From assembly GCA_029077825.1 (NCBI GenBank), contig JAQNCT010000004.1, forward strand, positions 1 to 64,000: a DNA stretch of 64,000 nucleotides. The letters run 5' to 3'. Positions 2,659 to 38,847 of this stretch are shown piece after piece. Each line of letters begins with the position of its first letter. Position 1 is the first letter of the stretch. Position numbers and translations under genes: made by a program. The notes beneath the pieces are model-generated. The model saw nothing but the letters and a program-made list of their open reading frames with translations. It did not search any database and was not told the origin of the DNA. The stretch comes from Acidocella sp. (lineage in GTDB: Bacteria > Pseudomonadota > Alphaproteobacteria > Acetobacterales > Acetobacteraceae).

Positions 2659-2756
2659 GCTGGTTTTTGCCGGATTGCATGCCATTAGATCATTGATATC
2701 TCTTGTCGTGCGCAAGTCGCGTGACCTTATAGGTGGCCTAACACTGGGGGATTATC

Positions 2757-3458
2757 ATGCCGGCTTCTCAATCGGATAGATCAGCTCTCGTTATTGGCGC
2801 ATCGCGTGGCCTTGGCCTTGGCCTCGGGCTGGCGGAGACGTTCGCAGCGCGCGGTTGGCGCGTGACCGCGACAATCCGTCATGAACCAGCGCCGGCGGCG
2901 TTACAGCGTCTTGCTGCGCGGGTGGCGGTTGAGATTTTGGACATCAACGATCTTGCTTCGGTTGCGGCGTTTTTGCATCACATTGCGGATCAGATGTTTG
3001 ATGTTGTGTTCATCAACGCGGGTGTTGGCGGGCCAGAGGGCAAAACGGCCGAAACGGTGACGCCCGAGGAGATGACACATTTGTTTATGACCAATGCTAT
3101 TTCTCCGGTCAGACTTGGTGAAAAATTATTGCGCAATGTTAAGCCAGGTTCAGGTATTTTGGCGTTCATGACGTCAATTTTGGGGAGCGTGACATTGAGT
3201 GGCGGCAGTTATGCGCCGCTCTATTGCGCCAGCAAAGCCGCGTTGAACCAGTTGACCCGTAGTTTCGTGGCGGGGATGACGCAAGATATCACGGTACTCT
3301 CGATGCATCCTGGCTGGGTTAAAACCGATATGGGCGGCGCTGGCGCTGATATTGATATTGCCACCAGCGTAAAGGGCATGGTGGATGTGCTGGAAGCAAA
3401 AGCGGGCAGCCGGAAGCATGAGTATCTAGATTATCGCGGCAAGACCATCCCCTGGTAA
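2757..3458 (+). CDS. Short-chain dehydrogenase/reductase (SDR), CsgA-like
   Basis: 233 residues, a complete classical SDR that should use NAD(P)H to reduce or oxidise an unknown carbonyl or alcohol. The dinucleotide-binding motif is GASRGLG (about residues 14-20) with an unusual run of four Gly-Leu pairs. NAG is present as FINAGVGG, the catalytic Ser lies in TSILGSV, and the Tyr-Lys pair is YCASK. HPGWVKTDMGG is the usual post-catalytic segment of the CsgA/sniffer-type subgroup. ATG 2757 is preceded by a GGGGG stretch about 5 bases upstream. It stands alone on the plus strand, so context gives no hint of the substrate. Confidence 0.85.
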   Translation: MPASQSDRSALVIGASRGLGLGLGLAETFAARGWRVTATIRHEPAPAALQRLAARVAVEILDINDLASVAAFLHHIADQMFDVVFINAGVGGPEGKTAETVTPEEMTHLFMTNAISPVRLGEKLLRNVKPGSGILAFMTSILGSVTLSGGSYAPLYCASKAALNQLTRSFVAGMTQDITVLSMHPGWVKTDMGGAGADIDIATSVKGMVDVLEAKAGSRKHEYLDYRGKTIPW

Positions 3459-3666
3459 TATCTGCAACAGCTAGTTTGCCATATTAATTTTCTCATGTAG
3501 CGCTTGCCGCGTCATAGTTCCTTAACCAGTCGATGATAGTTTAAAATTGCTTGTATAATGCAGGCAACTTTCGGAATTTATAGCCAGTATCGGAGCTAAC
3601 GGGTGCGTCGGGCAGTATAGCAGCGATAAGGAGATTTTTAGAATTTGAACGCACAGGATGCGCAAT

Positions 3667-4077
3667 ATGGCGGGGCTTGTCGTCGAACTAAAGCAAAATG
3701 AACTGATCATCATCAATGGCGCCGCTATTCGCTTTCGGACAAAATCGCGTGTTGAGATTACCGGTAAAGCGCAGTTTTTATATGGCAAACAAATTCTATT
3801 GCCTGAGGATGCCAATACGCCGGCGGCGCTGATTTATCTGGCGGTTCAAACCGCGTATATTGGCAATGTTGATGAGCGCGACAAAGCGATTGATGAAGCG
3901 CGCATATTGGTTGCGCAGTTTAAATTCCAATCGAAATCTGATCTCGCCAAGGGTATATTGGATAAAATCATGGTGCTGGTTGAAGCGCAACAATGTTATG
4001 AGGCGTTGAAATTGGCCCGGCGGATTATGCAGCATGAGGCCGCTTTGCCGCAGGCGCATTATCTTTGCGAGAGATAA
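3667..4077 (+). CDS. flbT: Flagellar biosynthesis regulator FlbT
   Basis: 136 residues from ATG 3667 (MAGLVVELKQNELIIINGAAI); an ATG three codons earlier (3658) is possible, and I prefer 3667 because family members begin with this 'M..L.leLk..E.iiiNGA.i' segment. FlbT in Caulobacter binds flagellin mRNA and represses its translation until the hook is complete. Family features visible are the early NGA turn, the 'LLPEDANTPAALIYLAVQTAYIG' segment and a helical C-terminal half ending YEALKLARRIMQHE. No flagellin, flaF or other flagellar gene lies in this window, so the gene is an orphan here. It converges on the permease gene and overlaps it by 19 bases. Confidence 0.8.
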   Translation: MAGLVVELKQNELIIINGAAIRFRTKSRVEITGKAQFLYGKQILLPEDANTPAALIYLAVQTAYIGNVDERDKAIDEARILVAQFKFQSKSDLAKGILDKIMVLVEAQQCYEALKLARRIMQHEAALPQAHYLCER

Positions 4078-26250: not shown

Positions 26251-27540
26251 ATGCCGGAGCATGTGCTAGAATCGCGTTCGGATGATGTTAAAGCGCCAAG
26301 GCGTGCTGCCTTGGCGTTTATTTTGGTAACCATTCTGCTGGACATGCTGGCAATGTCGCTGGTTATTCCGGTTTTACCTCGGCTTGTGCTGGGGTTTCTG
26401 CACGATGACACGGCGGCTGCGTCGCGTGTCATTGGTGTTTTCGGGACAGCATGGGCGTTCATGCAGTTCATTTTTTCGCCGATTCTGGGTGCCTTATCAG
26501 ACCGTTTTGGCCGGCGGCCGGTGGTGCTGATATCCAATGTTGGGCTGGGATTGGATTATATTTTAATGGCCTTGGCGCCCGGTGTCGGGCTGTTGTTTGT
26601 TGGCCGACTTATATCTGGAATCACGGCCGCCAGCATTTCAACGGCGCAGGCTTATATCGCCGATGTATCGCCGCCAGAGAAACGCGCCGCCAATTTTGGA
26701 TTGATGAGCGTGGCATTCGGCCTGGGCTTTATTCTAGGTCCGGCATTGGGTGGTTTGCTGGGGCAGATCAATCCGAGGTTACCGTTCTGGGTCGCCGCCG
26801 GCTTAAGCATGAGCAATGCTCTGTACGGCTATTTTATTCTGCCCGAGTCACTTGCCGCCGATCGGCGGGGAGGATTTTTCTGGCGCAAAGCGAATCCACT
26901 TGGTGTTTTTAAATTTTTACGCGGGCGTTCAGGTTTGGCGCCGTTGGCGGTGATCCATTTCCTGTTCTGGTTGAGCCGCGCTGCATTACCGGCCATCATG
27001 GTACTCTACGTCACCTATCGGTATGGCTGGAATATCGCAACGGTGGGGCTGACGTTTGCAGGCGTTGGGCTGTGCTCCATGGTTGTTGGCGGCGTCATGG
27101 TGAAACCCATTGTGACCAGGCTTGGGGAACGGATTTGCCTGATCATCGGGCTGCTTTTTGGGGCGGTTGGGATGGGGATGTTTGGCTTTGCTGATAAGCC
27201 GCTGATTTTTTGGTTTGGTGTGCCGGTGATGTCACTGATGGGTCTGGCGACCCCCGCTCTGCAGGGCCTTATGACACGGCGCATCCCGCCCACCGCGCAA
27301 GGTGAACTGCAAGGTGCCATCGGCAGCGTTGGGGCGGTTGCCCAAATGATCGGCCCGGGTCTGTTCAGCTTTGTGTTTGCTCACAGCATTTCGGCGCATT
27401 TGACCTTGCTGGGGGGCAGTCTGACAGGGGCACCATTTTTTGTGGCGGCGGCTTTGCTGGCCGTGGCCGCTGGATTAGCGCTGCAGGGCGGACATAAAGG
27501 CAGAGTTGTCATGCCGCTGGATGTGACGATTAACGACTAG
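26251..27540 (+). CDS. MFS exporter, TetA/TCR-like
   Basis: 429 residues with twelve predicted membrane helices. The MFS motif A is GALSDRFGRRPVVL after helix 2, followed by the antiporter region around GFILGPALGGLLG in helix 5. The start LAFILVTILLDMLAMSLVIPVLPRLV is typical of tetracycline-resistance-type proteins (DHA1 family), in which drug/H+ antiport is known. The actual substrate is unknown. It starts 12 bases after mlaC, with only a poor ribosome site, so it may depend on the upstream genes. The TAG stop lies inside the first palindrome of the repeat element that follows. Confidence 0.83.
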   Translation: MPEHVLESRSDDVKAPRRAALAFILVTILLDMLAMSLVIPVLPRLVLGFLHDDTAAASRVIGVFGTAWAFMQFIFSPILGALSDRFGRRPVVLISNVGLGLDYILMALAPGVGLLFVGRLISGITAASISTAQAYIADVSPPEKRAANFGLMSVAFGLGFILGPALGGLLGQINPRLPFWVAAGLSMSNALYGYFILPESLAADRRGGFFWRKANPLGVFKFLRGRSGLAPLAVIHFLFWLSRAALPAIMVLYVTYRYGWNIATVGLTFAGVGLCSMVVGGVMVKPIVTRLGERICLIIGLLFGAVGMGMFGFADKPLIFWFGVPVMSLMGLATPALQGLMTRRIPPTAQGELQGAIGSVGAVAQMIGPGLFSFVFAHSISAHLTLLGGSLTGAPFFVAAALLAVAAGLALQGGHKGRVVMPLDVTIND

Positions 27541-31091: not shown

Positions 31092-32063
31092 ATGGGCCTC
31101 AAACCGCCCCATATGGAGATTGCGCGAATATTATGCACGGATTTGGCCGGGCTGCGGGCCCAGGCCATCGGGCTGGCGGAGGCCGCTGGTTTGACCCCGG
31201 ATTTACGGACATTAACAATTCGCAAGCCATGGTCGGGGCTTTCACCCAGCCTGTGGCCAAACCCACTGAAAGCCGTTGATGAAGCCGCGATTGCCGGACC
31301 TTTGCCGCGGTTGATCATCGGTTGCGGCGGGGCAGGGGCCCGTGTTGCGGCGGGCTTACGCGGGCCAGATGTTAAGGTTGTCGTGATCCAGCACCCACGC
31401 ATGGCATTAAAAAAATTTGATCTGGTGTTTGCCGCCCGCCATGACGGTATTGCCGGTGCCAATGTGGTTATCACACGTACCGCGTTGCACCGCGTAACAG
31501 CTGCCCGGCTGGCGGCTGAGGCTGAGATTTGGTGCCCCAGTTTTGCCCCGCACAGCCGCCCCTTGGTTGCGGTTATGCTGGGCGGTAGCAATGGCCGCTA
31601 CCGGTTTGACGCGGTTGCTGCTGAGCTGTTTGCGCATCAGCTCGCCACGATGATGCGCCGTGATGGGACTGGCGTGATGATCACACCATCACGCCGGACC
31701 GGACATGAGGTTATTGCCATCCTGCGGCGGGTTTTGGAGCCGCTGGGTGCATGGATTTGGGACGGTACCGGCGAGAACCCTTATTTCGGGATGCTTGGCC
31801 TTGCAGATGCGCTGATTGTAAGTGCTGATTCAGTTTCAATGGTGTCAGAGGCAGTGGCAACTTCAAAGCCGGTATTCTTATTAAGGCTGCCGGGCAAATC
31901 GTCCCGGATTGGTGCGTTTATGGATATGTTGGTGGCTGAGGGCCGGGTAAAAGACTTTGCAGGCCGCTTTGAGACATGGGATTGCGCCCCACTTGACGAT
32001 ACGCCATTGGCCGGCGCGAGATTGCGGCAATTGTTGGAAATCCAAGAGAGCGGCTCATGCTAG
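31092..32063 (+). CDS. ELM1/DUF1022-family protein (GT-B-like)
   Basis: 323 residues from ATG 31092; an in-frame TTG at 31077 is possible. The family is defined by mitochondrial fission protein ELM1 of plants and bacterial DUF1022 proteins, whose fold is like GT-B glycosyltransferases. Recognisable parts are LPRLIIGCGGAGARVAAGL, VVVIQHPRMALKKFDLVFAARHDGI, VAVMLGGSNGRYRFD, TPSRRTG and NPYFGMLGLADALIVSADSVSMVSEAVATSKPVFLL. No donor sugar is known; some bacterial members are proposed to act in cell-surface synthesis. It overlaps the next gene by 7 bases, so the two are translationally coupled and probably work together. Confidence 0.82.
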   Translation: MGLKPPHMEIARILCTDLAGLRAQAIGLAEAAGLTPDLRTLTIRKPWSGLSPSLWPNPLKAVDEAAIAGPLPRLIIGCGGAGARVAAGLRGPDVKVVVIQHPRMALKKFDLVFAARHDGIAGANVVITRTALHRVTAARLAAEAEIWCPSFAPHSRPLVAVMLGGSNGRYRFDAVAAELFAHQLATMMRRDGTGVMITPSRRTGHEVIAILRRVLEPLGAWIWDGTGENPYFGMLGLADALIVSADSVSMVSEAVATSKPVFLLRLPGKSSRIGAFMDMLVAEGRVKDFAGRFETWDCAPLDDTPLAGARLRQLLEIQESGSC

Positions 32064-33952
32064 ACATTGAAACATTTGATAACCGGCGCGGCGGCAATGT
32101 TGTTTACAAGGCGTTGGCGCATCCTCTGGCGGCAGAGGCTTTGGCCCGGTTGGCTGCAGATCTCAACAAAGCTGGTTCGACCGCGATTTATGATCCGGAT
32201 GGTATCGCCGCAGCGTTGCTGGCGCTCACGCCCCCGATCGATGTCGAAGGGATTTATGTGCATGATACTTCGGCAGTGGGCGAGGCGCGTGGGGGGCATA
32301 TTGCCTGTGCTTTAACCGAACTTGCGACCTCAAAAGCCACCGCGGTGTTGATTGCCGCGTTCGATGCGGGCCGGCTGGCCGCGCGCATCAAAGCGTTGGT
32401 GCCCGATACTTGCAGGGTTGTAACGCTTGATGCGGTAAAACTACCGGAATCACTCATTACAAACACCAAGCATTATCTTGACCCGGTAAATTTCGCGACG
32501 AATTTTGTATTTTTCCGTGATGACGACCATTTTGCCACGCGCCTAACAACCGCCAACTACTGGGCAGGTTACGGTGCAAAGTCAGTCAAGTTTTTCCACC
32601 GATTGTTTAACGATGCCGGTGAGGTGTTGGCCGAATGGGAAACGCTGGCACCACCGAAAAACGGCGGGTTCATTATTGACAGCCGCGACGTAAGGCAACG
32701 GCTTAATTTCGGGCCGTTTACAGGCCAGCTATTCATTCATGCCGTCGGCGTAGCGGGACATGATGTCGTCAAATACGCCCTTGATACTTACTCAACCGAC
32801 AATGGCGCATCACTTTCGTGCACGCATGATGCCAATGCCTGGCCCTCAGACCGGTTCGCAGGTTTGCCCGCACCACGCGATAACGAAACTGTTGTGCTGT
32901 GGGTGCAAAACAGCCACGCCGTGACCATTCCGGCGGGTGCCATGGCGCTGGATCGGATGGGTGCTGAGGTGCCCGTGCCGATTAATTTTGAAATTCCCGC
33001 TTTCGCGACCCGGCCAATTGATGTTGCAGAGTTCTTCCCAGGGTTAAAATGGCCGGCGCAAATTGAATTGCGGGCAGGCCGGCATTTGGTAAGGCCCCGT
33101 TACGAGGTAACAAGCCAAGGCCGAACACGGATTGCGCATATCAATGTGGAACGCAGCGATCTGCAACCTGATCCGGGCATTAAAACATTATCACCTGCGT
33201 TGGGCCGGGGGTTTTTGTTACCTTTCCCCATTTTGCCGCGCCATAGCTATAAAACCATTGTGCAACCTACCCCCATGGCGATCAGCGAAATGAATATGCC
33301 GCTGCGTGTGGATATATTTGACGCTGATGGTAGAAAAATTTTCGAGCATTTCATCGGGCTGTTACCGCGCAACCATAATGTTGCCGTTGATCTGGATGAT
33401 TTGCTTCCGGCTGACGCATTGCAGGGCGGTGGACATGCTGAACTGGTTTATGATTTTCGCAATGGCGGAGACGCCAACGGCTGGTTGCACGCGCTTTTCC
33501 GGTTTGAAGACCGGGTAAGCGGCCATGCCGCTGAGAGCAGTTTCGGCGCGCATATGTTTAATATGATCATGACGTATAAAGGCGAGCCGCAATCATATAA
33601 CGGTCCACCTCCAGGTCTTTCAACCAGGCTATTCTTAAAGTTGGGCCTGGCGGGCCGTGCCAGCTTTTGTGTTCTGATATACCCGGCCTCCGCCGTCTGG
33701 AGCGAAAAATCCAGCACGCATTTGGAGTTGTATGATTCTGAGGGCACGATGTTAGACACTAAGCCGCTCCAAATTGCCTGTTCTGGTTCCGCTATTGTTT
33801 ATCCCACCGCGTATTTTGAGGCGGAAAAACTCTGTGCCGCCGGCGAGGCCGGGTATGTTTTGATCCGTGACATGACTTGCCGTTTGTTTGGCTTCCACGG
33901 TGTTATAGATGGTGCGGGGAGCTTTTCACTTGACCATATGTTTGGCTTTTAA
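32057..33952 (+). CDS. Large protein of unknown function coupled to the ELM1-like gene
   Basis: 631 residues that match no family I can name. No signal peptide or membrane helix. The first 130 residues alternate helix and strand (LNKAGSTAIYDPDGIAAALLAL, DVEGIYVHDTSAV, RVVTLDAVKLPESLI) like a nucleotide- or sugar-binding alpha/beta domain. Residues about 190-630 are strand-rich, with many aromatic and charged turns (YALDTYSTDNGASLSCTHDANAWPSDRF, PFPILPRHSYKTIVQPTPMA), which suggests stacked beta domains. Five or so cysteines are scattered without a metal-site pattern. ATG 32057 overlaps the ELM1-like stop by 7 bases. The pair may form a surface-glycan or envelope module, but that is inference from the neighbour only. 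Confidence 0.8.
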   Translation: MLDIETFDNRRGGNVVYKALAHPLAAEALARLAADLNKAGSTAIYDPDGIAAALLALTPPIDVEGIYVHDTSAVGEARGGHIACALTELATSKATAVLIAAFDAGRLAARIKALVPDTCRVVTLDAVKLPESLITNTKHYLDPVNFATNFVFFRDDDHFATRLTTANYWAGYGAKSVKFFHRLFNDAGEVLAEWETLAPPKNGGFIIDSRDVRQRLNFGPFTGQLFIHAVGVAGHDVVKYALDTYSTDNGASLSCTHDANAWPSDRFAGLPAPRDNETVVLWVQNSHAVTIPAGAMALDRMGAEVPVPINFEIPAFATRPIDVAEFFPGLKWPAQIELRAGRHLVRPRYEVTSQGRTRIAHINVERSDLQPDPGIKTLSPALGRGFLLPFPILPRHSYKTIVQPTPMAISEMNMPLRVDIFDADGRKIFEHFIGLLPRNHNVAVDLDDLLPADALQGGGHAELVYDFRNGGDANGWLHALFRFEDRVSGHAAESSFGAHMFNMIMTYKGEPQSYNGPPPGLSTRLFLKLGLAGRASFCVLIYPASAVWSEKSSTHLELYDSEGTMLDTKPLQIACSGSAIVYPTAYFEAEKLCAAGEAGYVLIRDMTCRLFGFHGVIDGAGSFSLDHMFGF

Positions 33953-34199: not shown

Positions 34200-35570
34200 A
34201 TGGAGACCGAACACATCATGCTTGATCAGCTGGACGGGTTTGCTTGGAACAAGTTCCATCGCAGAGCTTCCATAGCACTCGGATTAGGCTGGGGAATGGA
34301 TGCTTTTGAAGTCACGCTGATTGGCTCGATTTTGGGTGTGTTGGGACCGTTATGGCATTTAAATGGCCTGGCACTCTCGGCCATTCTGGGCGTCTGGTTT
34401 GCCGGCATTATGCTGGGCGCGCTTGGTTTTGGCATTTTGACTGACCGCTATGGCCGCCGGGTGATATTTTTGGCCAGCCTTGTACTATATGGCACGGCTA
34501 CATTTCTCACAGCCTTTACCCAAGGGATTGGGGGGCTGCTGTTTTTGCGTTTTATGGCAGGGGTTGGGGTGGGGGCTGAGTATGCAGCAGTGAACGCGGC
34601 GATTGCTGAGTTTATGCCAAGTGCTAAGCGCGGCTTTGCGGCCAGTTTTGTGATGAATTTCTGGTCAATTGGCACGTTGCTGGCGGCATTATTGGCGTGG
34701 TTGGTTTTTGCGCTTTTACCAGCTGCCGATGGCTGGCGGCTTATATTTGCCAGCGGCGGTGTGGTGGCCTTTGCCACCTTGTGGCTGCGCCGCCAGCTGC
34801 CTGAATCGCCCCGCTGGTTGTTAGCACAGGGCCGGGATGCTGAGGCAGCGGCGATTGTTCAAGCCATTGGCCAGGGGGTAGTTCCCCTCACCAGCCTAGC
34901 GGTTGCTCCCGCTCAGCCCAGACGCATAAAAACGCGGTTTTGGGCAGATTTCAGGGCCTTAATCACTCATCACAAATCTGTTTTGGCGTTGGGCTGTGTG
35001 CTCGATTTTGCCGAGGCGGGGGGTTACTATGGTTTGTTTGCTTTTTTGCCGTTGGCGGTTTTGCCAAATTTACATCTGGGCGCAACCGCGCTCCCGCCAT
35101 TTTATATCGCAGGCAGTTTGGGGGCTTTGTTAGGTGGCATCATGGTGAGTCTATTGCTGGACCGGTTGGGCCGCAAACCGGTGGTGAGTTTTTTTTATGG
35201 CGCCACAGCCCTGGCCTGCCTGGGGTTTGCCAAGTGGGTGAATGCTGACATTTGGGTGCTGGGTGGGGGCTTTGTGTTGGTTAATTTATTGGCAACCGCC
35301 AGCTGGGTTGGCGCTTACCCAACATTTTCTGAACTATTCCCCACCCGTTTGCGGGCCACGGGCATCGGTATCTCGGTTGCGGTTGGGCGCATTGGCGCAT
35401 TAATTTCACCGTTTTTAATGGATTTTGCCGGCAAAGCGGGGCTGGCAGCCGCGCTGGCTGTGCTTGCCGGTTTTTGGTTGATAGGGTTTTTGGCCATGCT
35501 GGTATGGTGGTTTGTAGGCATTGAAGCAAACGGCGTGCCGCTTGAGCGGCTGAACAAACTTCCCGCGTGA
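34200..35570 (+). CDS. MFS transporter coupled to the metallophosphoesterase-radical SAM gene
   Basis: 456 residues with twelve likely membrane helices; MFS of the sugar/aromatic-acid (SP/AAHS) type. GWGMDAFEVTLIGSILGVLG is the first-helix motif of this group, GILTDRYGRRVIF is motif A, and RFMAGVGVGAEYAAVNAAIAEFMP is the helix-4 motif. The second half repeats the pattern as LLLDRLGRKPVVSF. The substrate is unknown and could be a small acid or a modified metabolite. Its TGA overlaps the GTG of the next gene as GTGA, so it is translationally coupled to the fused phosphoesterase/radical SAM protein, which suggests import or export of that enzyme's substrate or product. Confidence 0.82.
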   Translation: METEHIMLDQLDGFAWNKFHRRASIALGLGWGMDAFEVTLIGSILGVLGPLWHLNGLALSAILGVWFAGIMLGALGFGILTDRYGRRVIFLASLVLYGTATFLTAFTQGIGGLLFLRFMAGVGVGAEYAAVNAAIAEFMPSAKRGFAASFVMNFWSIGTLLAALLAWLVFALLPAADGWRLIFASGGVVAFATLWLRRQLPESPRWLLAQGRDAEAAAIVQAIGQGVVPLTSLAVAPAQPRRIKTRFWADFRALITHHKSVLALGCVLDFAEAGGYYGLFAFLPLAVLPNLHLGATALPPFYIAGSLGALLGGIMVSLLLDRLGRKPVVSFFYGATALACLGFAKWVNADIWVLGGGFVLVNLLATASWVGAYPTFSELFPTRLRATGIGISVAVGRIGALISPFLMDFAGKAGLAAALAVLAGFWLIGFLAMLVWWFVGIEANGVPLERLNKLPA

Positions 35571-37255
35571 AATTACAGCGTGACGGCAGGCTGCTGGTTT
35601 TTGGCGGTTGCTACAGCAATTTACAGGCAACCCAGGCGTTGTTTCACCAAGCGCAGCGCCTGGGCATTGCCGCTTCAAACATGATCTGCACGGGTGATAT
35701 TATTGCCTATGGGGCGGATGCGCAGGCAACTTTGGCGTTGGTGCGCCGTGCGGGTGTTGCCGTGGTGATGGGCAATTGTGAGGAAGCTTTTGGCGCGCAA
35801 TCTGATGATTGTGGCTGTGGCTTCCCCAAGGGTTCAGCCTGTGATGTTCTGGCCGCCGCCTGGTATGCGCACGCGGCAGCGGAGATTGATGAGTTTGACC
35901 GCCATTACATGGCGCACCTGCCAAAACATATTGAAATTGCCGTGGCGGGCAAAAAAATACTGTTTGTGCACGGCAATGTGGAGCGGATCAACGCGTTTGT
36001 TTTTCCCTCCGCCAGTGACCTTGAGCTTGAGCACCAGTTGGAATTATCAGGCTGCGATGCGTTGGTCGCGGGGCATTGCGGCATCCCCTTTACCAGAACT
36101 CTGGGTGATAAAGTCTGGCATAATGCCGGCAGCATTGGGATGCCTGCCAATGATGGCACGCCGCGCGGCTGGTTTAGCACCATTGATGTTCAGGACGGTG
36201 ACATCTCGATCATCAGCCATCCTTTAATCTATGATTATCGGGCCGCAGCAGACTCAATGCGGCAGGTTGGGTTACCAGAGCCGTATGCGGCAGCACTTGA
36301 GACGGGTATTTGGCCCAGTTTAGATATTCTGCCGGCGGTTGAGCGCTATTTTACCGGGGTTGCGCTAGAACAACGCGCCATAGCTGAAGAAATTCCTAAA
36401 GTTGTACTGCAGAGGCTGGAAAATTTATGGGTAAACACTGGTAGCCGGTGCAACCTGGCATGCCGGAACTGCTTTATGGAAAGCACGCCCCGTAATGATG
36501 ATTTAAGCTATTTCAGGCTGGCTGATTTTAAGGCCATTTTGGCGCAACTACCCCCCACAGTGGTTGAAATTGGCTTTACCGGTGGTGAGCCTTTCATGAA
36601 CCCTGACATCATGGCGATGCTGGATATGTGCCTGGCATCTGGGCGGCGCGCACTGGTGCTAACCAACGCCATGCGCCCGATGCAAAAACATGCCACAGCG
36701 CTTGCCCGTTTGGTTGCAAGCCATGCGGGCGGTTTGGCCATTAGGGTCTCATTGGACCATTACCAACCCGGCCGGCATGAAATTTTGCGCGGCAAGGGGA
36801 GTTTTAAGCCAAGTTTGGCGGGGCTCAAGCTGCTGGCGGAACTTGGCGCCAATTTGTCAGTCGCCGCGCGCACCCCTTGGGGTGAGACACAGGCCATGAT
36901 CCGCGCCGGGTTTGCCGGGTTGTTTGCTGAGCAGGGACTAGGCTTGGATGCCCATAACCCAGAGGCGCTGGTGCTGTTCCCGGAGATGGATATGGCAGCG
37001 CATGATGTAACCCGCGTGACCAGCCAGGCACTCTCATTGCTGGGGGAGGATAACCCTTTGATGTGCGTGAACTCTCGGATGGTGCTGCGGCGCAAAGGTG
37101 AGGCAAGCATGAGCTTTACGCCGTGCACTTTATTGCCGGATGTGAACCTTGGCTCATCTTTGGCACAGGCCCTAGCGCCGGTTACGCTGGCGCACGCCCG
37201 TTGCGGGCAGTTTTGCGTGTATGGCGGCGCCTCATGCGCAGGTGCCCCTGGTTAA
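35567..37255 (+). CDS. Metallophosphoesterase-like / radical SAM fusion protein
   Basis: 562 residues starting at GTG 35567, which overlaps the MFS stop. Residues 1-245 look like a metallophosphoesterase: GD at 43-44, GNCE at 69-72, VHGN around 135 and GHC at 169-171. But the first Asp-x-His motif is replaced by GGCYSN (13-18), and an insert carries Cys82, Cys84 and Cys92. Residues 290-480 are a radical SAM domain: Cys295, Cys299 and Cys302 in CNLACRNC bind the 4Fe-4S cluster and GGEP is at 339-342. The C-terminus has Cys500, 520, 546, 550 and 557, a SPASM-like pattern that could hold an auxiliary cluster. Product and substrate are unknown. The two halves joined in one chain is the notable point. 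Confidence 0.85.
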
Positions 37256-37296: not shown

Positions 37297-38847
37297 ATGC
37301 AAGATGAAAAAATTCTGATCCTGGATTTCGGCAGCCAGGTAACACAGTTGATTGCCAGGCGGCTGCGTGAGTCTGGTGTGTATTGTGAAATTTGGCCGTT
37401 TAATGCGGACCCCGGGCGCATAGCGGCATTTAATGCCAGGGGGTTTATTCTCTCTGGGGGGCCAGCCAGTGTTTCTGATGCCGGTTCACCCCGCGCGCCC
37501 GCCATAGTATTTTCCGCTGGCGTGCCGGTACTGGGCATTTGTTATGGGCAGATGACCATGTGCGCCCAACTGGGTGGTGATGTAAGCGGTGCTGAAATTC
37601 GTGAATTTGGCCGCGCCTATGTTGATGTGATTGAAGATTGCGCCTTGTTTGAAGGCGCCTGGGCGAAGGGTGCCCGTGAGCAGGTTTGGATGAGCCATGG
37701 CGACCATATCTCAGCGCCGCCGCCAGGTTTTCGTACCGTTGCCATAAGTGAAGGCGCACCTTTTGCGCTGATTGCTGATGATGTGCGGCGTTTTTATGGG
37801 CTGATGTTTCACCCAGAAGTGGTGCATACGCCGCATGGCGCGCAACTGCTGCGTAATTTTACCCATAATGTGTGCAAGCTCTCCGGCGGCTGGACGATGG
37901 CCGGCTTCCGGGAGGCTGAAAAAGCCAAAATTCGTGCCAAGGTTGGAACCAGCCGGGTGGTTTGTGGTTTGTCCGGCGGGGTAGATTCCTCAGTGGCTGC
38001 CGCTTTGATCCATGAAGCTATCGGCGACCAGTTAACCTGCATTTTTGTGGACCATGGGTTGTTGCGCGCCCATGAGGCTGAGCAGGTTGTGAAGGTTTTT
38101 CGCGATCAATTCAAAATCAATCTGATCCATCGTGATGCCTCAGATTTATTTTTAGGCAAGCTGGCGGGGGTTACTGACCCGGAACAGAAGCGAAAAATTA
38201 TTGGTAAATTATTTATTGATGTGTTTGACGAAGAAGCCGCTAAAATTGGCGGTGCTGAATTTCTTGCGCAGGGAACTTTGTACCCTGATGTTATTGAATC
38301 AGTCAGTGCATTGGGTGGCCCAAGCGTTACCATCAAGTCACACCATAATGTTGGCGGGCTGCCAGCCCATATGAAAATGCAACTGGTTGAGCCGTTGCGC
38401 GAGCTGTTCAAGGATGAAGTGCGCGTACTGGGCCGTGAACTGGGTTTGCCAGAAGCGATTGTTGGCCGGCATCCCTTCCCGGGGCCTGGCTTGGCAATAC
38501 GCATTCTGGGTGCGGTAACCCGCGAGGCAGTGGCCATATTGCAGAAAGCTGACGCGATTTATTTGGAAGAGATTCAATCCGCTGGGTTATACAACGCCAT
38601 TTGGCAGGCGTTTGCGGTGTTGTTGCCGGTAAAATCTGTGGGGGTTATGGGGGATGGCCGGACTTATGACCAAGTGTGCGCCTTGCGCGCGGTAACCAGC
38701 ACGGATGGTATGACCGCTGATGTTTACCCATTCGAGATGGCATTTCTCTCCCGTGTGTCCAACAGAATTGTCAATGAGGTGCGCGGTATCAACCGTGTGA
38801 CTTATGATATTACCAGCAAGCCACCTGGCACGATCGAGTGGGAATGA
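37297..38847 (+). CDS. guaA: GMP synthase (glutamine-hydrolysing)
   Basis: 516 residues from ATG 37297 ([25 protein letters not shown]), normal length. The frame is open further upstream, but only this ATG gives the family N-terminus. It makes GMP from XMP, ATP and glutamine. The glutaminase Cys is in GICYGQM, and the His-Glu pair in FHPEVVHT. The PP-loop of the ATP pyrophosphatase domain is [10 protein letters not shown]. The C-terminal dimerisation domain ends [20 protein letters not shown], as in all GuaA proteins. It lies 41 bases after the fusion gene and 4 bases before a hydrolase gene. Confidence 0.96.

Follow-up and report, generated by a model that had tools for sequence, protein, structure and literature searches.

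A fused metallophosphoesterase-like and radical SAM protein of Acidocella associated with genes labelled for arsenosugar biosynthesis

Why should a single bacterial gene encode both a phosphoesterase-like and a radical S-adenosylmethionine (SAM) domain? The question is raised by the first 64,000 nucleotides of contig JAQNCT010000004.1 of Acidocella sp. (GenBank assembly GCA_029077825.1, Alphaproteobacteria), hereafter called the window, which harbour a gene for a 562-residue protein with both domains. An initial annotation of this DNA proposed that the two halves share a pathway, for example radical modification followed by phosphate removal, and knew of no assigned pathway for the pair. As detailed below, we regard the fused protein as part of a variant system of the ArsS kind. 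We estimate at roughly one half the probability that it acts in a pathway like that of ArsS, with an adenosylating radical SAM half and a repurposed partner domain that would handle the acceptor or carry out a one-metal reaction.

The open reading frame (ORF) starts with GTG on the + strand and has 0 internal stops. Both domains score above the Pfam gathering cut-offs, with Metallophos_2 (34.3 bits, cut 27) and Metallophos (25.3 bits, cut 21.5) on residues 15-205 and Radical_SAM (55.7 bits, cut 29.5) on residues 289-429, which confirms the single two-domain chain initially described. The motifs quoted at the time are all present (GD43-44, GNCE69-72, VHGN134-137, GHC169-171, CNLACRNC295-302 and GGEP339-342), as are the five C-terminal Cys residues (Table 1). 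Compared with three relatives, the 26 codons of the linker show 8-11 differences at first, 3-9 at second and 16-18 at third codon positions, and third positions differ most in both halves and the linker alike. This concentration of differences, including in the linker, indicates one protein. The match region is devoid of stops in 14/14 fused copies from 13 genomes of the genus. The open frame and the codon pattern of the linker thus lend no support to an internal start yielding two separate proteins, which the initial annotation had named as a possible refutation, although an internal GTG start is conceivable from the sequence. The closest named relative is a protein from an Acidocella metagenome-assembled genome, with 79% identity along 562 residues. 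Among the results listed for the search terms used, in the collection searched, we found no paper on this phosphoesterase-radical SAM fusion.

Fused copies are present in 13 of the 37 genomes of the window's Acidocella-like genus, one of which harbours two. In a maximum-likelihood tree of 77 radical SAM halves, whose bootstrap had not settled, 14 fused rows share a single clade (support 100/99), from which the fused protein of locus L107 is separate. Judging from this tree, the fusion arose at least twice independently, and the domain order is phosphoesterase-radical SAM in both cases. The search for neighbouring unfused copies recommended initially was fruitful. Unfused halves adjoin each other in nine distinct loci, where the radical SAM gene precedes the phosphoesterase gene on the same strand and 14 to 74 bases separate the matches. 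In all our counts, L033 and L092, being one place, were taken once. Among the 118 matching genomes of a broad search, 19 have both halves unfused, side by side in 8 of them and apart in 11 (G058, G061, G123, G129, G134, G190, G236, G264, G333, G342 and G349); the ninth adjacent locus, L035, was found outside this 19-genome set. In locus L114 a distance of about 3.7 kb separates the halves, which lie on opposite strands. Taking the adjacent unfused pairs together with the two independent fusions and a shared genome distribution, we consider a functional partnership well supported. Both halves appear to act in one pathway, and the initial proposal is upheld on this point.

To which pathway they might belong is suggested by their genomic distribution relative to TIGR04283, a glycosyltransferase family. 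We chose 80 genomes and called TIGR04283 at E ≤ 1e-25, with 46 of the 58 matching genomes over the curated cut-off; the Fisher tests treat related genomes as independent. Fifty-seven of the 80, namely 55 carriers of the radical SAM half and two genomes with the phosphoesterase half only (G050 and G089), were taken from the matching genomes of the broad search (45/118), further carriers of the genus (9) and matches outside the class (3/5), and the genus carriers G005, G012 and G026 were left out. The remaining 23 had no match at E ≤ 1e-30 in the broad search, mostly by absence from its match list, and two of these non-carriers (G048 and G051) gave weak radical SAM matches in the genus search. 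Ten genus non-carriers were left out (G038, G042, G044, G049, G053, G055-G057, G059 and G060), none of which reached the TIGR04283 threshold of E 1e-25. Because scoring in the broad search was restricted to the top three candidates of each genome, such that an absent second half is not evidence there, the phosphoesterase half was searched alone.

TIGR04283 was found in 54 of the 55 genomes with the radical SAM half versus 4 of the 25 without it (p = 2.6e-14), and in 23/23 genomes with the phosphoesterase half versus 35/57 without it (p = 1.8e-4). Within the window's genus and at E ≤ 1e-50, 11 of the 13 carriers versus 0 of the 24 non-carriers have it (p = 9e-8). The two fused carriers without a strong match, G012 and G026, have contigs that end inside the gene of a VTT-FAD (flavin adenine dinucleotide) oxidoreductase described below, and the sole carrier of the 55 devoid of TIGR04283, G426, is outside the class. 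Conversely, the four genomes with TIGR04283 and no radical SAM half are G050, which has ArsS, G089, which has the phosphoesterase half and is 87% complete, G040 (a weaker match, 118 bits) and G064. In G064, a TIGR04283 gene over the cut-off lies at C1:4008231-4008890, and no ArsS (E ≤ 1e-10), radical SAM half (E ≤ 1e-20) or phosphoesterase half (E ≤ 1e-8) was found. Since related genomes are not independent, kinship is ignored by the tests and the 80 genomes were hand-chosen, shared alphaproteobacterial ancestry without any joint pathway might produce such a pattern. We consider this very improbable, given that the fused gene and TIGR04283 are present or absent together within one genus despite being unlinked (they are on two contigs, C20 and C45, in the window's genome), and given the one-operon arrangements, the similar sets outside the class and a plasmid-borne cluster.

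We clustered the ORFs around 58 loci and the window, for fused and unfused copies alike. The recurring neighbours are a VTT-domain and MerA-like FAD oxidoreductase, TIGR04283 and TIGR04282, and some lineages have in addition an ArsM-like methyltransferase, an MTAP-like phosphorylase or DUF547 proteins. TIGR04282 and TIGR04283 both bear the label 'arsenosugar biosynthesis glycosyltransferase'. The statement that no pathway is assigned calls for qualification, as neighbouring and co-occurring genes bear this label. Five fused loci (L097, L098, L100, L102 and L103) lead into the VTT-FAD oxidoreductase, TIGR04283 and TIGR04282 genes, with one extra ORF call in between in L100; their TIGR04283 proteins score 175 to 193 bits (cut 182), 2/5 over the cut. 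In the window's genome the set is found on another contig, at locus L145 (TIGR04282, TIGR04283, VTT and FAD oxidoreductase), with TIGR04283 at 191.8 bits and TIGR04282 at 150 bits (cut 134), both above the cut-offs of these arsenosugar-labelled families. Similar gene sets occur at L132 and L133, in genomes outside Alphaproteobacteria. Locus L145 also harbours, at 2663-3781, a PA0069-family radical SAM gene divergent from TIGR04283, whose cluster has 11 members in the loci examined, two of them identified by model. In locus L121 (3957-10171), from a streamlined genome of 1.2 Mb (G134), a VTT gene comes after the radical SAM gene, and an O-succinylhomoserine sulfhydrylase gene and, by eye, genes like metE and metF are nearby. 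The same sulfhydrylase cluster was found in 8 fetched loci, not always adjoining the radical SAM gene.

A link with ArsS comes from two clusters. Genuine ArsS is over the cut-off in one of the 80 genomes, G050 (445 bits, cut 300), which is without a copy of the fused gene's radical SAM family. There, at locus L116, ArsS is found beside a VTT-FAD oxidoreductase, an MTAP-like gene, TIGR04283 and a homologue of the phosphoesterase half, in a cluster that also contains a PhnD-PhnE-PhnC importer and a further oxidoreductase. A similar set is present on a plasmid of Roseomonas haemaphysalidis (locus L159; NZ_CP061178.1, 9010-22068), with the fused gene's radical SAM family in place of ArsS. This cluster comprises genes for TIGR04282, DUF547, two radical SAM proteins (one of them additional to the family member), PhnDEC, phosphoesterase, chalcone-isomerase-like and DoxX proteins, followed by a second DUF547 protein, FAD oxidoreductase, VTT, a TIGR03169-like oxidoreductase and TIGR04283. 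The two clusters thus have the VTT-FAD oxidoreductase, TIGR04283, a phosphoesterase-like gene and PhnDEC in common, the last with 63% (PhnD), 60% (PhnE) and 51% (PhnC) identity, and no MTAP-like gene was found in the annotated stretch of the Roseomonas plasmid. These matching gene sets around ArsS and the radical SAM family indicate that the family occupies the ArsS position.

The radical SAM half was compared in 77 distinct sequences, after duplicates and weak matches were dropped. Its CX3CX2C motif and its Pfam score place it in the radical SAM superfamily, and C295, C299 and C302 are presumably the ligands of the SAM-binding 4Fe-4S cluster, as known from the superfamily. Judged by conservation, the five C-terminal Cys residues are a probable auxiliary Fe-S site. 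As for more specific assignments, no characterized family covers the fused protein, in agreement with the initial annotation, as it scores below the cut-off of each of the best 25 of the 54 matching NCBIfam models. ArsS and the radical SAM half share a radical SAM core with CX3CX2C and have five Cys residues each in their tails, spaced C-x14-C-x35-C-x2-C-x7-C in the ArsS of L116 versus C-x19-C-x25-C-x3-C-x6-C. The likeness of the tails rests on these spacings and on a MAFFT alignment, in which the first tail Cys is out of register, because the profile comparison aligned the first half only. Membership of the ArsS family itself was rejected, with model scores far below the 300-bit cut and at most 72 bits wherever the radical SAM half occurs in the 80 genomes. 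Among the models listed, the best NCBIfam score is for the Rv1681 family (NF049973), ranging from 82 to 95 bits among the scanned members. In addition, the Rv1680 family model gives a weak match (29.5 bits, cut 400) to a PhnD-like protein encoded in the G050 cluster, and no paper naming both Rv1680 and Rv1681 was found in the collection searched with the terms used.

What, then, does the phosphoesterase half do? In an alignment of 36 distinct sequences, without duplicates and weak matches, D44, N70, H135 and H170 are kept in 36/36 rows; by the usual assignment in this fold, we take them to be the ligands of one metal site. Motifs II to IV (GD, GN and H) and the fold of two-metal metallophosphoesterases are present, but not the D-x-H of motif I or the GHxH of motif V. 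The initial annotation had overlooked that D-x-H is replaced by G14-C15-Y16 and the last His of GHxH by G172. G14 and Y16 are found in 35/36 and 34/36 rows (one row is truncated there and one has Cys for Tyr), and H170 and G172 in 36/36 each. By the usual ligand assignment, the changes to G-x-Y and GHxG presumably remove one of the two metal sites. The half has also gained a cysteine cluster, with C82, C84 and C92 each in 36/36 rows and C71 in 34/36. The position of C71 corresponds to the His of GNH in 3rqz and to Trp in 3qfm, and neither structure has Cys at the positions of the cluster. Its predicted fold, from an AlphaFold model of moderate quality built on 8 sequences (mean predicted local distance difference test score 73, predicted template modelling score 0.49), resembles, among the matches listed, the calcineurin-like folds of the asymmetric diadenosine tetraphosphate (Ap4A) hydrolase SapH (3qfm, Z 24.8) and of the PF/PH proteins 1nnw and 2gju (Z 25.8), over 234 to 241 residues. 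Unlike the phosphoesterase half, 3qfm retains D-x-H and GHxH.

The loss of three ligands of one metal site throughout the 36 rows makes ordinary two-metal phosphate removal unlikely, and radical modification followed by phosphate removal is therefore not supported as it was formulated. A working one-metal phosphatase or phosphodiesterase, acting on the radical SAM product or on a later sugar phosphate, is an alternative that we regard as possible and rather unlikely. It would account for the strict conservation of the remaining site. SapH, the nearest listed fold with a function in its title, is an Ap4A hydrolase/phosphodiesterase, and a pathway of the glycosyl-phosphoglycerate type, suggested by weak matches of TIGR04283 proteins to glucosyl-3-phosphoglycerate synthase, would need a phosphatase. 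However, the other site is removed family-wide, and 1nnw and 2gju, which head the fold matches, are entered as hypothetical proteins. From the aligned sequences, the phosphoesterase half is probably a repurposed, non-canonical partner domain. With one metal site lost and a Cys cluster gained, a role in handling the acceptor is likelier than ordinary phosphatase action.

Table 1. Position of the fused gene, its halves and motifs and the adjoining transporter gene in the window
Feature	Coordinates	Strand	Basis
Fused gene, 562 residues, degenerate metallophosphoesterase-like and radical SAM domains	35567..37255	+	ORF, Pfam, linker, 14 fused copies in 13 of 37 genomes of the genus
Metallophosphoesterase-like half, residues 1-268	35567..36370	+	Pfam Metallophos_2; predicted fold
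Motif I place, G14-C15-Y16 instead of D-x-H	35606..35614	+	Hidden Markov model (HMM) alignment to 3rqz and 3qfm
Cysteine cluster C71, C82, C84, C92	35777..35842	+	36-row alignment
Motif V place, G169-H170-C171-G172, GHxG instead of GHxH	36071..36082	+	HMM alignment to 3qfm
Radical SAM half, about residues 277-558	36395..37240	+	Pfam Radical_SAM; alignment of 28
C295-x3-C299-x2-C302	36449..36472	+	77/77 rows
Five C-terminal Cys C500, C520, C546, C550, C557, probable auxiliary Fe-S site	37064..37237	+	Each in 77/77 rows
Major facilitator superfamily (MFS) transporter gene, stop overlapping the start of the fused gene	34200..35570	+	Pfam MFS_1/Sugar_tr

We propose that the C-terminal half represents an uncharacterized radical SAM family replacing ArsS in a set with TIGR04282, TIGR04283, VTT and MerA-like FAD oxidoreductase proteins, supplemented in some lineages by an MTAP-like phosphorylase, DUF547 or ArsM. 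ArsS is reported to adenosylate arsenic (PMC12159101). In the likely mechanism, the radical SAM half would cleave SAM and put the 5'-deoxyadenosyl group on a reduced acceptor, which in the arsenosugar case would be a trivalent methylarsenical. The MTAP-like phosphorylase would then remove adenine, and the glycosyltransferases would transfer the ribosyl unit. The acceptor might be imported by MFS, phosphonate-type or Liv-type ATP-binding cassette (ABC) transporters, or might not be arsenic. The N-terminal half, with one metal site kept, the other lost and a Cys cluster gained, would most likely handle or deliver the acceptor, or use its single metal site to convert an intermediate of the pathway.

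Several observations weigh against this proposal. The fused protein scores 67.5 bits with the ArsS model TIGR04167, less than with the Rv1681 model (81.9 bits), which likewise stays far under its cut-off of 380 bits. The profile comparison with ArsS covers the first half only and ends mid-protein, and the C-terminal DUF3641 of ArsS, present in the genuine ArsS of L116, was not found in the fused protein by Pfam scan. The nearest solved radical SAM structure among the matches listed to the predicted model is a decarboxylase and no adenosyltransferase, the cytosylglucuronate decarboxylase BlsE (7vob; Z 17.3 over 236 residues, 22% identity; BlsE model 37.6 bits, cut 400). The 'arsenosugar' name of the two glycosyltransferase families is, we presume, a label by association, and MTAP is also a common salvage enzyme. 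Of the 58 TIGR04283 genomes, 35 have no phosphoesterase homologue at E ≤ 1e-8. Lastly, ArsM is only weakly associated with the radical SAM half (15/55 carriers versus 2/25 others, p = 0.076) and is rarer with the phosphoesterase half (1/23 versus 16/57). Its matches are over the model cut-off in just 3 of the 80 genomes, several being partial, and none was found in G050, the holder of genuine ArsS, or, with two models, in any of the 10 Acidocella-like carriers tested.

Part of this evidence would fit a radical SAM half that modifies a sugar nucleotide or a peptide, in the manner of BlsE or of SPASM maturases, and a TIGR04282/TIGR04283 pathway whose product, a glycan or cofactor, contains no arsenic. 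In favour of this reading are the closest solved radical SAM folds among the matches listed, those of BlsE and SkfB, as well as the five-Cys auxiliary tail and the lack of an ArsM match in 40/55 carriers. Nevertheless, we find this alternative doubtful in view of the gene neighbours shared with genuine ArsS and the proximity of ArsM-like genes in several lineages; it was weakly tested, as no small precursor peptide gene was sought.

Returning to an ArsS-like role, the radical SAM gene has an ArsM-like gene no more than about 1.2 kb away in five cases, four identified by model (L132, L134, L131 and G152) and one by clustering (L119). For the 10 Acidocella-like genomes, a dependence on ArsM was looked for with the two models and not found. 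The window's genome gave no ArsM match at E ≤ 1e-25 (PRK11873) or 1e-15 (NF038099), thresholds that a very divergent methyltransferase could escape. In G129, an ArsM-like match (C75:16268-16837) contains one in-frame TGA, possibly a selenocysteine codon. In carriers without recognizable ArsM, the acceptor would be imported or would be other than arsenic. Transporter genes are found beside or near the genes of interest, of the MFS type in the window and 9 other fused loci, of the Liv-type ABC in L095 and L121 and of the phosphonate-type ABC in L116 and L159. The MFS homologue is directly upstream in 10 of the 14 Acidocella-like fused loci examined; in the others we found a cut-off MFS gene (L096 and L097), a contig edge (L099) and an ABC transporter (L095). 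In the window itself, the GTG of the fused gene overlaps the stop of the MFS gene (GTGA). As context rather than proof, a study of Pelagibacter (SAR11) reports the oxidation of the methyl groups of dimethyl arsenate and a rise in phnD transcription on exposure (PMC6426599).

Selenium is a possible alternative to arsenic, and one oxidoreductase of L159 is similar to TIGR03169, a SelD-linked family (214 bits, cut 310). As a tentative extension of the ArsS-like proposal, which we hold to be possible but rather unlikely, the phosphoesterase fold may have become a thiol-based metalloid- or Fe-S-binding domain, with C71, C82, C84 and C92 presumably by the vacated site, that would hand an imported reduced metalloid to a new adenosylating radical SAM family. 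This would amount to an ArsM-independent arseno- or selenosugar route across Alphaproteobacteria, including a genome of 1.2 Mb.

Elsewhere in the window, the gene 3' of the fused gene reads by eye as guaA, with a likely ATG at 37297. A protein of 631 residues without Pfam or NCBIfam matches (E ≤ 0.1) is encoded at 32057-33952, next to an ELM1-like gene, and three close relatives have a homologue in the equivalent position. An MFS protein like Tet(A)-type tetracycline efflux pumps (292 bits, cut 475) is encoded at 26251-27540, between MlaA/HpnM-like genes and chorismate synthase.

We know of no enzymes assigned to the steps that follow arsenic adenosylation in arsenosugar formation, and the gene set described here supplies candidates for them. 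Our analyses suggest that a second radical SAM family may stand in for ArsS, and they uncouple this pathway from ArsM in numerous bacteria. Arsenosugar-like chemistry would accordingly be more widespread than assumed, unless the two annotated families are misnamed 'arsenosugar' in these organisms. The fused gene, which provides both halves at once, is a convenient handle for deciding between these outcomes.

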